A stretch of DNA of 36,946 bases, taken from positions 1 to 36,946 of the IMG/VR virus record IMGVR_UViG_3300020595_000089; one strand, written 5' to 3'. Made by a program: the position numbers and the translations under genes. The stretch comes from a virus. Within the stretch, counting starts at the first letter, position 1, and each line of letters opens with the position of its first letter. This document shows, in pieces, positions 19,884-23,224 of the stretch. Below the pieces are notes generated by a model that saw nothing but the letters and a program-made list of their open reading frames with translations, did no database searches and was not told the origin of the DNA.

Positions 19884-19917
19884 GCCTGCAATTTGTTGAA
19901 TTAATTTGTATAAAAGC

Positions 19918-19946
19918 TTGCACATGGACACGGCCTTTGGTAATAT
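19918..19946 (+). promoter_or_regulatory. Early promoter A (GACACGG class)
   Basis: TTGCAC (19918-19923), 17-base spacer containing GACACGG, TAATAT (19941-19946). Upstream ATTAATTTGT and downstream GCATGTTGGAGAGAGAAACTAA are conserved in copies B and (in part) C and D. It drives the genes at 19987 and probably 20460. Confidence 0.8.
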
Positions 19947-19986
19947 AGGCATGTTGGAGAGAGAAACTAAAGCAAGGAGAAGTGAG

Positions 19987-20385
19987 ATGATGAGACTAGG
20001 AAGCGGAACGGGCAGCTTGGTGAACCACATTTACAGTCGGTCCACCCCAGTTGAACCAGAGGTAGGGATGGGTGCAACACTGTTGAGTTGGACTGACAGG
20101 CATCCTGCAACGGTCACAGAGGTTTTCAAGAAAGGTAAGTACAAATACTTTACGGTTCGAGAAGATCGCTGGGAAAGAGTCTCTGGAATCATGGGCGAAA
20201 GTGAAAACGTGGTTTACGAATTTTACCCAAGCAAAGAAGGCGAAGGTCGAGAGGCGACTTACAGAATCAAAGAAAGCGGTTATGAACATGTCTTTCTTAA
20301 CCCAGACACCGGGCGGTTTTTCAAGATGAATACTGGCGGTGTCATAGTAGGTCGAAGAGAAAAGTACCATGACCCACACTTTTAA
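19987..20385 (+). CDS. Conserved early-region phage protein
   Basis: 132 residues from ATGATG at 19987 after AAGGAGAAGTGAG. The frame is also open back to ATG 19951 (MLERETK), but that ATG lies at the predicted transcription start of promoter A. The pattern GSGTGSLVNHIYSR, then EPEVGMGATLLSWTDRHPATVTEVFKKGKYKYFTVREDRWERV, recalls a small protein carried by many unrelated phages. A compact beta-rich fold is likely. Function unknown; early host-takeover or nucleic-acid role is only inferred from the promoter. Confidence 0.75.
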   Translation: MMRLGSGTGSLVNHIYSRSTPVEPEVGMGATLLSWTDRHPATVTEVFKKGKYKYFTVREDRWERVSGIMGESENVVYEFYPSKEGEGREATYRIKESGYEHVFLNPDTGRFFKMNTGGVIVGRREKYHDPHF

Positions 20386-20459: not shown

Positions 20460-20795
20460 ATGGGTATGTATATAAATGTTTATCGTGATGCAGGCGGTTA
20501 CGACTGTAGCAAAAACGGGGTTAGTCGAAATTTTAACTCGGTTTGTGTGACCAATATCGAAGGCCCATTCGAGCCAACAGAGGAAAGGCCAGCAGTGCTC
20601 TTGCTTGAAGGCCCCGGCCCCGGCGGCAATCCAATTTTAGTCCCCATCGAGGTTATTGAGTCAGGCGCTCATTATATGTTCGGCGGCAACTTTGGGTACA
20701 CCTCAGACAGTCGGTTTTCGGAAGCGGTTAAGAAGATTGCTCCCGGTAATACCGGTGCTGTGAAGTTCCATGATCGAGTCGAAAGGTGCGATTAA
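20460..20795 (+). CDS. Conserved phage protein of unknown function
   Basis: 111 residues from ATG 20460 after CTAAGGAGAAAACC; an in-frame ATG at 20403 lies in the hairpin region and lacks a ribosome site. MGMYINVYRDAGGYDCSKNGVSRNFNSVCV, GPFEPTEERPAVLLL, SGAHYMFGGNFGYTSDSRF and a final HDRVER follow a family found in many tailed phages in early or regulatory regions. It is predicted beta-rich. No role is established to my knowledge. Confidence 0.75.
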   Translation: MGMYINVYRDAGGYDCSKNGVSRNFNSVCVTNIEGPFEPTEERPAVLLLEGPGPGGNPILVPIEVIESGAHYMFGGNFGYTSDSRFSEAVKKIAPGNTGAVKFHDRVERCD

Positions 20796-20808
20796 TTTGT
20801 GTAATTGC

Positions 20809-20837
20809 TTGCACATCGACACGGCATTTGGTATTAT
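20809..20837 (+). promoter_or_regulatory. Early promoter B (GACACGG class)
   Basis: TTGCAC (20809-20814), 17 bases with GACACGG, TATTAT (20832-20837), followed by AAGCATGTTGGAGAGAGAAG. It matches copy A closely from about base 20792 to the start codon at 20882. Confidence 0.82.
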
Positions 20838-20881
20838 AAGCATGTTGGAGAGAGAAGTTAAAACTAAGAAGGAGAAGTGAG

Positions 20882-21498: not shown

Positions 21499-21683
21499 TT
21501 CACGCCCCATTGACCAAGCCTGTCAAGAGGGGCAGGCCGTTAACCACTGGCCGGTTTAGCACGAGAGCTGAGCTTGAAGCTAACGTCATGGATCGATACA
21601 GAAAAGGTTGGTCAGCTCGGAGGATTGGGATTTACACCGGCATAACCGATGGGACGGTTGTGAAAATTATTGCAAATAATTAG
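21495..21683 (+). CDS. Small HTH protein with AT-hook-like KRGRP
   Basis: 62 residues, GTG start overlapping the previous stop. KRGRPLTTGRF (residues 11-21) resembles an AT-hook. Residues 24-60 (RAELEANVMDRYRKGWSARRIGIYTGITDGTVVKIIA) form a helix-turn-helix similar to resolvase-type HTH domains. A DNA-binding regulator is likely. It ends just before promoter C, so it could act on that promoter family (inference). Confidence 0.65.
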   Translation: MIHAPLTKPVKRGRPLTTGRFSTRAELEANVMDRYRKGWSARRIGIYTGITDGTVVKIIANN

Positions 21684-21692
21684 CATAAACAC

Positions 21693-21721
21693 TTGCACAA
21701 CGACACGGGATTTAGTATTAT
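21693..21721 (+). promoter_or_regulatory. Early promoter C (GACACGG class)
   Basis: TTGCAC (21693-21698), 17-base spacer AACGACACGGGATTTAG, TATTAT (21716-21721), then AAGCATGTTGGAGAGAGAAAC. It drives the genes at 21762, 21994, 22243 and 22589, the unit that contains the ribozyme candidate. Confidence 0.82.
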
Positions 21722-21761
21722 AAGCATGTTGGAGAGAGAAACTAAATCAAGGAGAGACGAG

Positions 21762-21980
21762 ATGAACGAAGCAAGAAAAGTTGTGTTTGGTCCGGGTAAC
21801 GATTCGCTCAGAGAGATTTTTGTTGACGGGGTTCATTTCGGAACATGCGAATTTGATTTCAACGCTGATTGTTTTTGGATGCACGGAGAAGATCCTGAAG
21901 CCAATTACGGAAGAGATTTTGAAGACAGCTTTGAAGATATTGCAAAACGCTACGGTGGCGTTGTTCACAAGATTAACTGA
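21762..21980 (+). CDS. Small acidic hypothetical protein
   Basis: 72 residues from ATG 21762 after AAGGAGAGACGAG. The frame is open back to ATG 21726 (MLERETK) at the predicted transcription start. The sequence REIFVDGVHFGTCEFDFNADCFWMHGEDPEANYGRDFEDSFEDIAKRYGGVV is beta then acidic helix, and could mimic DNA charge. No family recognised. Confidence 0.65.
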   Translation: MNEARKVVFGPGNDSLREIFVDGVHFGTCEFDFNADCFWMHGEDPEANYGRDFEDSFEDIAKRYGGVVHKIN

Positions 21981-21993
21981 AAGGAGGAGTGAG

Positions 21994-22173
21994 ATGGAAA
22001 ATTTTGAAACGAAGGGGCGAAGTGGCGAGTGGTATTACGGTTACATTCGCCGAAAGGGTCTTCGTAACCTCTGGGTTGTTAGGTGTCCAAAAGGCAACTT
22101 TTACGCCGCCACTGATAACAATTTAAGCGCGGCTATCAATGACGCTGCAAGGTATCGTGAATTCGGCATCTAA
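21994..22173 (+). CDS. Small basic hypothetical protein upstream of the ribozyme candidate
   Basis: 59 residues from ATG 21994 after AAAGGAGGAGTGAG. The sequence ENFETKGRSGEWYYGYIRRKGLRNLWVVRCPKGNFYAATDNNLSAAINDAARYREFG looks like a small three-stranded sheet plus helix. No family recognised. Its TAA (22171-22173) directly touches the 5' strand of hammerhead stem I, so a translating ribosome would cover and unfold the ribozyme until it terminates. Confidence 0.7.
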   Translation: MENFETKGRSGEWYYGYIRRKGLRNLWVVRCPKGNFYAATDNNLSAAINDAARYREFGI

Positions 22174-22223
22174 CCCACTGATGAGCTTGTGAGATTCTAT
22201 CGAAACGCCGAGAGGCGTCTGGG
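22174..22223 (+). ncRNA. Hammerhead self-cleaving ribozyme candidate (compact type I)
   Basis: Read as RNA: stem I 5' strand CCCA (22174-22177); core CUGAUGA (22178-22184); stem II region 22185-22201 closed by the expected G-C pair; GAA plus A15.1 (22202-22205); stem III ACGCC (22205-22209), GAGA tetraloop, GGCGU (22214-22218); cleavage base C (22219); stem I 3' strand UGGG (22220-22223). Every invariant hammerhead core base is present. The cleavage triplet is GUC, and stem I is open to both sides (type I). Stem II is weak: pairs alternate with pyrimidine mismatches. The element fills the gap between two small early genes, and cutting would leave a 23-base leader with AGGAGG before ATG 22243. 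Activity is inferred from sequence, not shown. Confidence 0.75.
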
Positions 22224-22242
22224 AAAACAAAGGAGGAGAGAG

Positions 22243-22587
22243 ATGGAAAAGGTAAAGTTTGGAATAGTGTGGAGGACGACCGACTACTGCATGTCGGAGC
22301 TGGCGAACTTTGTTGAATGTGCTGACAACATCGACAACGAAGATGGGGTTCGAGATCGTTACGAGGCTTTCGTATGGGATGTTTACGCTGGCAGGGTCAA
22401 GCCTAGCACATTGGTTGAACCTGAGTTGCTCACTTTATTTATTGGAGACCTAGACAACCGGGCGCACATCGATTACCTCGAAGGTCATTATGCTGACGAG
22501 CCTAATATCGTTGCTGGTGGCAAGCGGTTCTGGGAGCGATGCAAAAAGCTTCGGGCAATTCATCCAAATCTTTATCGGGGAATGTGA
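22243..22587 (+). CDS. Hypothetical early protein just after the ribozyme candidate
   Basis: 114 residues from ATG 22243 with AGGAGGAGAG upstream. An in-frame GTG at 22189 would translate through the ribozyme and is rejected. KFGIVWRTTDYCMSELANFVECADNIDNEDGVRDRYEAFVWDVYAGRVKP and WERCKKLRAIHPNLYRGM are helical and acidic. No family recognised. If the hammerhead cuts, the mRNA of this gene begins with a 5'-hydroxyl UGGG leader. Confidence 0.68.
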   Translation: MEKVKFGIVWRTTDYCMSELANFVECADNIDNEDGVRDRYEAFVWDVYAGRVKPSTLVEPELLTLFIGDLDNRAHIDYLEGHYADEPNIVAGGKRFWERCKKLRAIHPNLYRGM

Positions 22588-22588
22588 T

Positions 22589-22822
22589 ATGAACGTGATA
22601 GGAAAGCGAGTGGTAGGGAACTGGGGCGCTGGAATTCCTGAAAACGAAGGCACGATCTACGGCATGAGGGATGGTCATTTCGCCATGGTTCGATGGGATG
22701 ATTGTGAGTACGCAGAGCCGGACAGTATCTTCGGTTCCAAGGCAGAATACGCCATCTCATCGATCAAGGAAAAAGGCTGCACCAGCAAAAATGGCAGTCC
22801 AATCGGGGTATTTTATTGCTAA
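22589..22822 (+). CDS. Small SH3-like hypothetical protein
   Basis: 77 residues from ATG 22589, one base after the previous stop; the ribosome site would be the GGGGAATG context. GKRVVGNWGAGIPENEGTIYGMRDGHFAMVRWDDCEYAEPDSIF resembles the small beta-barrel (KOW/SH3-like) proteins that phages carry. The C-terminus is Cys/Gly-rich. Function unknown. It is the last gene before promoter D. Confidence 0.65.
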   Translation: MNVIGKRVVGNWGAGIPENEGTIYGMRDGHFAMVRWDDCEYAEPDSIFGSKAEYAISSIKEKGCTSKNGSPIGVFYC

Positions 22823-22849
22823 TTTCTTTCAATTAATTTGTCCAAACAC

Positions 22850-22878
22850 TTGCAATACGACACGGGATTTAGTATTAT
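22850..22878 (+). promoter_or_regulatory. Early promoter D (GACACGG class)
   Basis: TTGCAA (22850-22855), 17-base spacer TACGACACGGGATTTAG, TATTAT (22873-22878), with AATTAATTTGT upstream. The leader differs slightly from copies A-C (ATGTAGGGAGAGCAAG), destroying the short MLERE frame. It drives the run of genes 22919-24798. Confidence 0.82.
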
Positions 22879-22918
22879 AAGTATGTAGGGAGAGCAAGTT
22901 AAACAAAGGAGGAGTGAA

Positions 22919-23224
22919 ATGGAAGTTGGGATGAAAAAGTTGATTGACAAGATCATCGAGGATTACGGTAACCGACACAACGCCGAGGGTTTTGCAGAAG
23001 GGTTGGGTTACAAGGTCAACAGAAAGTACATCAAGGTGACGAGCAGAAACGATGGTTATGTATGGGGGTTTGTGGTCAACACTGACAATGACGAAATGTT
23101 CAGAAAGGGTGACATTTTGAAAGCTGACGGTTGGAGCACTCCAGCGAGAAACGCAGCGAGAGGCAACATTCTTGATGAGACATTCGGCTGGGTTCGCTGG
23201 ACTGGACCAGAGTATTTAAACTAA
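22919..23224 (+). CDS. Hypothetical early protein
   Basis: 101 residues, ATG after AAAGGAGGAGTGAA. KKLIDKIIEDYGNRHNAEGFAEGLGYKVNRKYIKVTSRNDGYVWGFVVNT is helix then beta, with a C-terminal GNILDETFGWVRWTGPEYLN. It resembles small alpha/beta early phage proteins but no family is recognised. First gene behind promoter D. Confidence 0.68.
   Translation: MEVGMKKLIDKIIEDYGNRHNAEGFAEGLGYKVNRKYIKVTSRNDGYVWGFVVNTDNDEMFRKGDILKADGWSTPARNAARGNILDETFGWVRWTGPEYLN

Follow-up and report, generated by a model that had tools for sequence, protein, structure and literature searches.

When a hammerhead ribozyme cuts, the upstream RNA is left ending in a 2',3'-cyclic phosphate and the downstream RNA beginning with a 5'-OH. 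Type I hammerheads are known from phages (PMC7761336). In 2011, Perreault et al. proposed that phage transcripts are cut by such ribozymes into operon- or gene-length mRNAs, and for one haloarchaeal virus the mapped 5' end lay within three nt of a predicted cut; the role of hammerheads in bacteria and phages was called unproven in the same work (PMC3088659). The prophage clusters described there resemble the arrangement reported here in that several hammerheads flank single genes or short blocks (PMC3088659). However, those clusters are prophages in bacterial genomes, whereas the present set is found on viral contigs and reaches 14 type I elements within 7.4 kb. The type II hammerheads (RF02276) of the Streptomyces phages R4 and phiELB20 are likewise present as many ribozymes among small phage genes, but their architecture is permuted and stem II is open, unlike that of the type I set. 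In phiELB20 (L090), 6 type II hammerheads above the Rfam cut-off are found in 3 kb (270 to 2876), with a spacing like that of the type I arrays.

Two Rfam families share the core of the phage set. The type I hammerhead RF00163 also has the same helix order, open stem I and NUH triplet; the phage set differs from it in a very short stem I that lies on or beside a stop codon. RAGATH-1 (RF03152) has the same core but requires an upstream stem-loop that pairs with loop II, and in its structure only the G10.1-C11.1 pair is needed before a pseudoknot replaces helix II (PMC11300833). Pseudoknots have been reported for all three hammerhead types (PMC3088659).

The window analysed here is the whole of the IMG/VR record IMGVR_UViG_3300020595_000089 (36,946 bases). 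A candidate hammerhead lies between two genes on the plus strand, and one close homologue of it, at the viral locus L004, was available for comparison. The features are as follows, with the basis of each assignment in brackets.

21994-22173, plus strand: upstream small gene, 59 aa, no family match; a different gene stands here in L004 (ORF)
22171-22173, plus strand: stop codon (TAA) that ends the upstream small gene; the next base is the first of stem I (sequence)
22174-22223, plus strand: hammerhead element (direct sequence reading)
22174-22177, plus strand: 5' strand of stem I, CCCA, an open-ended helix that covaries in relatives (sequence)
22178-22184, plus strand: catalytic core CUGAUGA, C3 to A9 (sequence)
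22185-22201, plus strand: stem-loop II, 17 nt, GCUU-GUGAGAUUC-UAUC (model alignment, folding, loop-class comparison)
22202-22205, plus strand: core GAAA, comprising G12, A13, A14 and A15.1 (sequence)
22205-22218, plus strand: stem III, A-U plus CGCC/GGCG, with GAGA tetraloop (sequence, covariation, folding)
22219, plus strand: C17, with predicted cleavage 3' of this base (hammerhead numbering; test of U16.1 and H17 at free positions)
22220-22223, plus strand: 3' strand of stem I, UGGG (sequence, covariation)
22220-22242, plus strand: 23-nt leader of the downstream mRNA after the predicted cut (sequence)
22243-22587, plus strand: downstream gene, 114 aa, no family match (ORF; PHROGs)

Within stem III, the CGCC-GAGA-GGCG hairpin occupies 22206-22217, and U16.1 is base 22218. 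The window copy has every base of the type I core (C3 U4 G5 A6 N7 G8 A9, G12 A13 A14 A15.1, U16.1 H17) and all three standard pairs that flank it, namely A-U at 1.1-2.1, G-C at 10.1-11.1 and A-U at 15.1-16.1. Stems II and III are closed; the stem I helix is open-ended, which makes the element type I. The leader runs to the ATG at 22243 and contains a strong Shine-Dalgarno sequence, AAAGGAGG, at about 22228-22236; AAAGGAGGAG precedes the start codon. An earlier note on this DNA had described a hammerhead core with stems I and III in the right order at this position, a stem I that begins directly after a stop codon, and a 23-base leader with a strong ribosome site. Each of these readings is borne out, and every base that it named is found in the sequence.

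Relatives were recovered from viral sequences by pattern. The first scan fixed only CCACUGAUGA and GAAACGCC, i.e. the 5' sides of stems I and III, and matched 72 viral stretches with 64 distinct hits. The 3' side of stem III, which this pattern left free, is the complementary GGCG in 42 of the 64. U16.1 is present in all 42; at position 17 there are 39 with C, 3 with A and none with G, and UGG continues after this position in 40; the chance rate of GGCG, U16.1 and UGG together at random positions is about 0.0009 per position. The free positions (GGCG, U16.1, H17) are the test of the family that is free of selection. Two further IMG/VR patterns freed stem III or stem I, and the family counts are to be read as "at least". 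A descriptor requiring at least 12 stem pairs gave at least 332 hits and at least 275 distinct type I hammerheads in 2.47 Mb of IMG/VR loci, and none in each of three Markov controls. Owing to its stem II, the window copy does not reach this threshold. In a relaxed scan there were about 40 apparent failures of stem II; on inspection these were mostly stems with one bulged base, and thus do not weaken the family.

The MAFFT alignments A2 and A3 misplaced strands of stem III or stem II and were set aside, and alignment A4 was used. In A4, two-sided changes are seen in 14 of the 15 pairs and pairing is kept in 94.4% of cells; 339 cells are changed on both sides, compared with 15-64 when the partners are slid by one to three columns. 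Covariation thus extends to stems I, II and III, but the count is descriptive only, because the descriptor required paired stems. The compensatory changes in stems I and III that the earlier note had proposed looking for among relatives are present in A4, with pairing being part of the selection. The core CUGAUGA is invariant save for N7 in alignments A1 and A4, where it was partly fixed by the search patterns. Pairing between loop II and the 3' flank is raised in the family (31% strong, compared with 15% in shuffles), while that with the 5' flank is unchanged, which is consistent with a stabilising pseudoknot in several subgroups.

A covariance model, R1, was built from 82 sequences of A4, with the window copy and L004 left out. 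It scores the window element at 47.6 bits (E 8.2e-12); the next match reaches only 10.5 bits, and the window therefore holds a single copy. L004 scores 54.6 bits and the Acinetobacter phages score 38.9-39.6 bits. An independently built model thus recognises as a hammerhead what had been put forward as a candidate, and together with the empty Markov controls it agrees with the previous judgement that a chance match was very unlikely.

With Rfam, the window gives no hit at the gathering cut-offs, and the best sub-threshold match at permissive thresholds is RF00008, at 17.5 bits and in the wrong register. Searches at both settings of the window, L004 and the other loci yielded no usable hammerhead for the window, sub-threshold matches being in the wrong register. 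The covariance-model hit that had been suggested as a check is thus absent from Rfam at gathering score. However, the hammerhead gathering thresholds also miss almost all intact relatives, so that this failure says little about the window. Of 12 records, none lies above the RF00163 cut-off (best 31.5 bits, compared with 34), and this model recovers neither the window element nor that of L004; the cut-off is exceeded by one intact relative, L244. Because the curated models miss most members, the set is likely absent from routine annotation. The RAGATH-1 architecture was also considered for the window element and rejected: the window is not reported at E<=10, L004 reaches 15.1 bits as against 56.3, and the sequence upstream of the element differs between the two. 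A blastn search of the region against 50,697 phage records returned nothing.

Genomic context was analysed for the 263 elements with enough flanking sequence. A stop codon upstream and a start codon downstream on the same strand surround 235 of them, with a median distance of 27 nt from cut to start; the intercistronic position described for the window element is thus that of nearly all of the family. In 59% of the 263, the longest upstream ORF terminates close to the core, its stop codon ending 0-8 nt before C3, compared with 3.9% at random positions. In many members the stop codon UAA is itself part of stem I (e.g., GGUUAA-CUGAUGA). In up to 48 of the 263 elements (e.g., L193 and L164), the upstream ORF apparently terminates at the UGA within the CUGA of the core; part of this count may be an artefact, in that the core itself provides a stop in the frame concerned.

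The densest array lies in the first 7.4 kb of contig IMGVR_UViG_3300031999_000054 (L111 plus L147), where 14 type I hammerheads are found on one strand, one after every small gene or two. Other array contigs have 12, 12 and 11 copies, and in mapped stretches the spacing ranges from 265 to 1,927 nt. Across bacterial and archaeal genomes totalling 257 billion bases, the strict pattern matches once; the set is therefore virus-borne and rarely seen as prophage. The window element is not an isolated oddity but, judged by its homology, a member of this large, virus-borne set of compact type I hammerheads. Searches of PHROGs with 85 genes downstream of relatives gave 26 families, mostly of unknown function and almost all matched by a single gene, and there is therefore no common downstream gene. 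These families include RecT/Bet-like annealing proteins and one anti-restriction protein.

Among cultured phages, single elements are present in the Acinetobacter phages JeffCo and SH-Ab 15497, Agrobacterium phage OLIVR1, Cellulophaga phage phi19:3 and Pseudomonas phage phiIBB-PAA2. Acinetobacter phages also carry hammerheads with the loop II class of the window (L087, 1502-1551; L088, 1501-1550; L089, 1501-1550). The Acinetobacter elements form no dense array; they follow either a helicase gene (in JeffCo a tRNA is annotated beyond the element) or, in Alexa, an integrase gene. A self-cleaving ribozyme of unrelated fold, the Type-P5 twister (RF02684), is found above the Rfam cut-off in three hammerhead-bearing phage loci (L021, 1199-1253; L032, 1664-1718; L062, 1252-1306, 3482-3544 and 3865-3929); Rfam finds none in the window.

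Neither of the two proteins that flank the window element (59 and 114 aa) has a family or a function in PHROGs, and no relatives were found with the upstream protein as query. Viral contigs contain 11 relatives of the downstream protein, of which the closest, at 99% identity, is that of L004. Only L004 has a hammerhead; the other ten relatives are without one, and the downstream gene therefore does not need it. The upstream gene of L004 differs from that of the window, but the element still follows directly after the TAA of that gene. The swapped sequence begins at the ribosome site (21984) and extends as far as the stop codon (22171); on either side of it are blocks with 96-99% identity. Over its 50 bases the element differs at a single position, 22200, where the window has T and L004 has a G that pairs with C10.2.

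This change falls in stem II, where the window retains the G10.1-C11.1 pair and has mismatches at C10.2 x U11.2 (base 22200) and at U10.4 x U11.4. The mismatch at C10.2 ends the stem after one pair, whereas L004 (GCU/AGC) and 34 other distinct members of the loop class have at least two stacked pairs. In this class, with loop II GUGARAYYC, the four-base arms are fully complementary in 34 of 36 distinct members; the exceptions are L004, with one mismatch, and the window, with two. The energy of the hammerhead fold exceeds the predicted minimum by about 7 kcal/mol in the window, 0.3 in L004 and 0 in L027 and L050. Because of this distance from the best alternative and the mismatches in stem II, the window copy may be slow or dead, and is probably impaired. 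The earlier note had named the weak stem II as the main doubt, rightly in view of the other members of the loop class, and had envisaged either compensating loop contacts or decay. Decay gains support from the pair lost at base 22200. As to compensation, the best pairing between loop II and the 3' flank of the window copy found by script is 3 bp, which is not convincing; a tertiary contact between its stems I and II is likewise not evident.

L055 and L004 agree at 92% over the upstream gene and the element, and L050 matches both L004 and the window at about 92% across the element and leader. The simplest reading is that the ancestor of L004 arose when recombination inside loop II brought together the arms GCUU and UAGC; one more stem II pair would then have been lost in the window lineage. 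Perreault et al. disqualify hammerheads that have several mispairs in a short stem (PMC3088659). By their criteria the window copy would be set aside barring measured activity, and L004 would be accepted (PMC3088659). We file the window element as a degraded hammerhead by descent, of doubtful activity, and accept L004 and the family as type I hammerheads.

The sequence of the element, its position, its homology and covariation, and the erosion of its stem II are directly seen. They lead us, with considerable confidence, to regard the window element as a type I hammerhead by descent within an early polycistronic transcript, and the intact members of its family as ribozymes that would cut between genes. 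Cutting of early polycistronic mRNA between genes is the most likely role; from sequence comparison we infer self-cleavage, its products and an effect on expression. An intact element would fold during transcription and cut after C17. The upstream message would keep the ribozyme body at a structured 3' end with a 2',3'-cyclic phosphate, and the downstream message would start at a new 5'-OH end, with a short, unstructured, A-rich leader and a ribosome site. In this manner the device could turn an early polycistronic transcript into gene-length mRNAs, and many phages would repeat it after gene after gene. The window copy, short of stem II pairs, would probably cut slowly or not at all.

For the window copy only, the balance is even as to whether it is a dead relic, inherited with a gene cassette and under no selection, with the two genes simply co-transcribed; this would be compatible with an active family. 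The two mismatches, where 34 of the 36 members of the loop class have none, and the high energy of the fold favour a relic, as does the recombinant appearance of L004, which combines an L055-like upstream gene and 5' half with an L050-like 3' half and leader (92% on each side); this recombination would have made the first stem II mismatch. On the other hand, all core bases, stem I, stem III and the G10.1-C11.1 pair are intact, in a metagenome contig one differing base may reflect misassembly, and according to Perreault et al. stem II commonly has two pairs and slower natural variants are active (PMC3088659). The recombinant junction within loop II also bears on the possibility, which we consider unlikely, that hammerheads are kept mainly as short homology islands for cassette swaps, RNA cutting being secondary. 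Such swaps would account for the replaced stretch between L004 and the window, bounded as it is by ribosome site and stop codon, and for the element pairs with similar flanks, of which 21 are similar on the downstream side only, 21 on the upstream side only and 9 on both. However, stem I, loop II and stem III vary widely with pairing kept, which pure homology would not need.

It is very unlikely that the stem III hairpin alone is the functional unit, as a 3'-end stabiliser or attenuator with an incidental core. This hairpin is strong and of a kind often found between phage genes, but U16.1 and H17 are invariant or nearly so where the first scan left them free, stems I and II covary too, no T run follows the hairpin and the terminator scan lists none there. 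Chance resemblance might be argued from the Rfam scores below threshold and from folding alone, which gives the element no unusual stability (z -0.4). Its probability is nonetheless negligible: the R1 E value opposes it, as do the retention of the element next to another gene in L004 and the hundreds of family members in a like context, and the homologues already refute it.

Beyond the 2011 proposal, what is added is the density of the elements, their tie to the stop codon, their scarcity in cellular genomes and an RF00163 cut-off that none of 12 records reaches. In open-licence papers, no report was found of the dense, stop-adjacent arrangement in lytic phages. A broader proposal, to which we give somewhat less than an even chance, is that a large group of mostly lytic environmental phages punctuates its early operons with compact type I hammerheads on or next to stop codons, one for every gene or two, such that every gene would obtain its own 5'-OH mRNA and the ribozymes would also serve as junctions for cassette swaps. 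If true, this would be a general and little-catalogued route to phage mRNAs that needs neither RNase III nor separate promoters. Where almost all early genes are followed by a ribozyme, fixed relative to the stop codon and ribosome site, the idea of mRNA processing becomes directly testable.

The window also contains an intergenic repeat of 101 nt in four imperfect copies (19890-19990, 20781-20881, 21665-21765 and 22822-22922; 68-80% identity). Three copies have sigma-70-like hexamers on the plus strand, at about 20810, 21694 and 22850, and the first copy contains a similar TTGCACA...TAATAT. The repeats are probably repeated early promoters.
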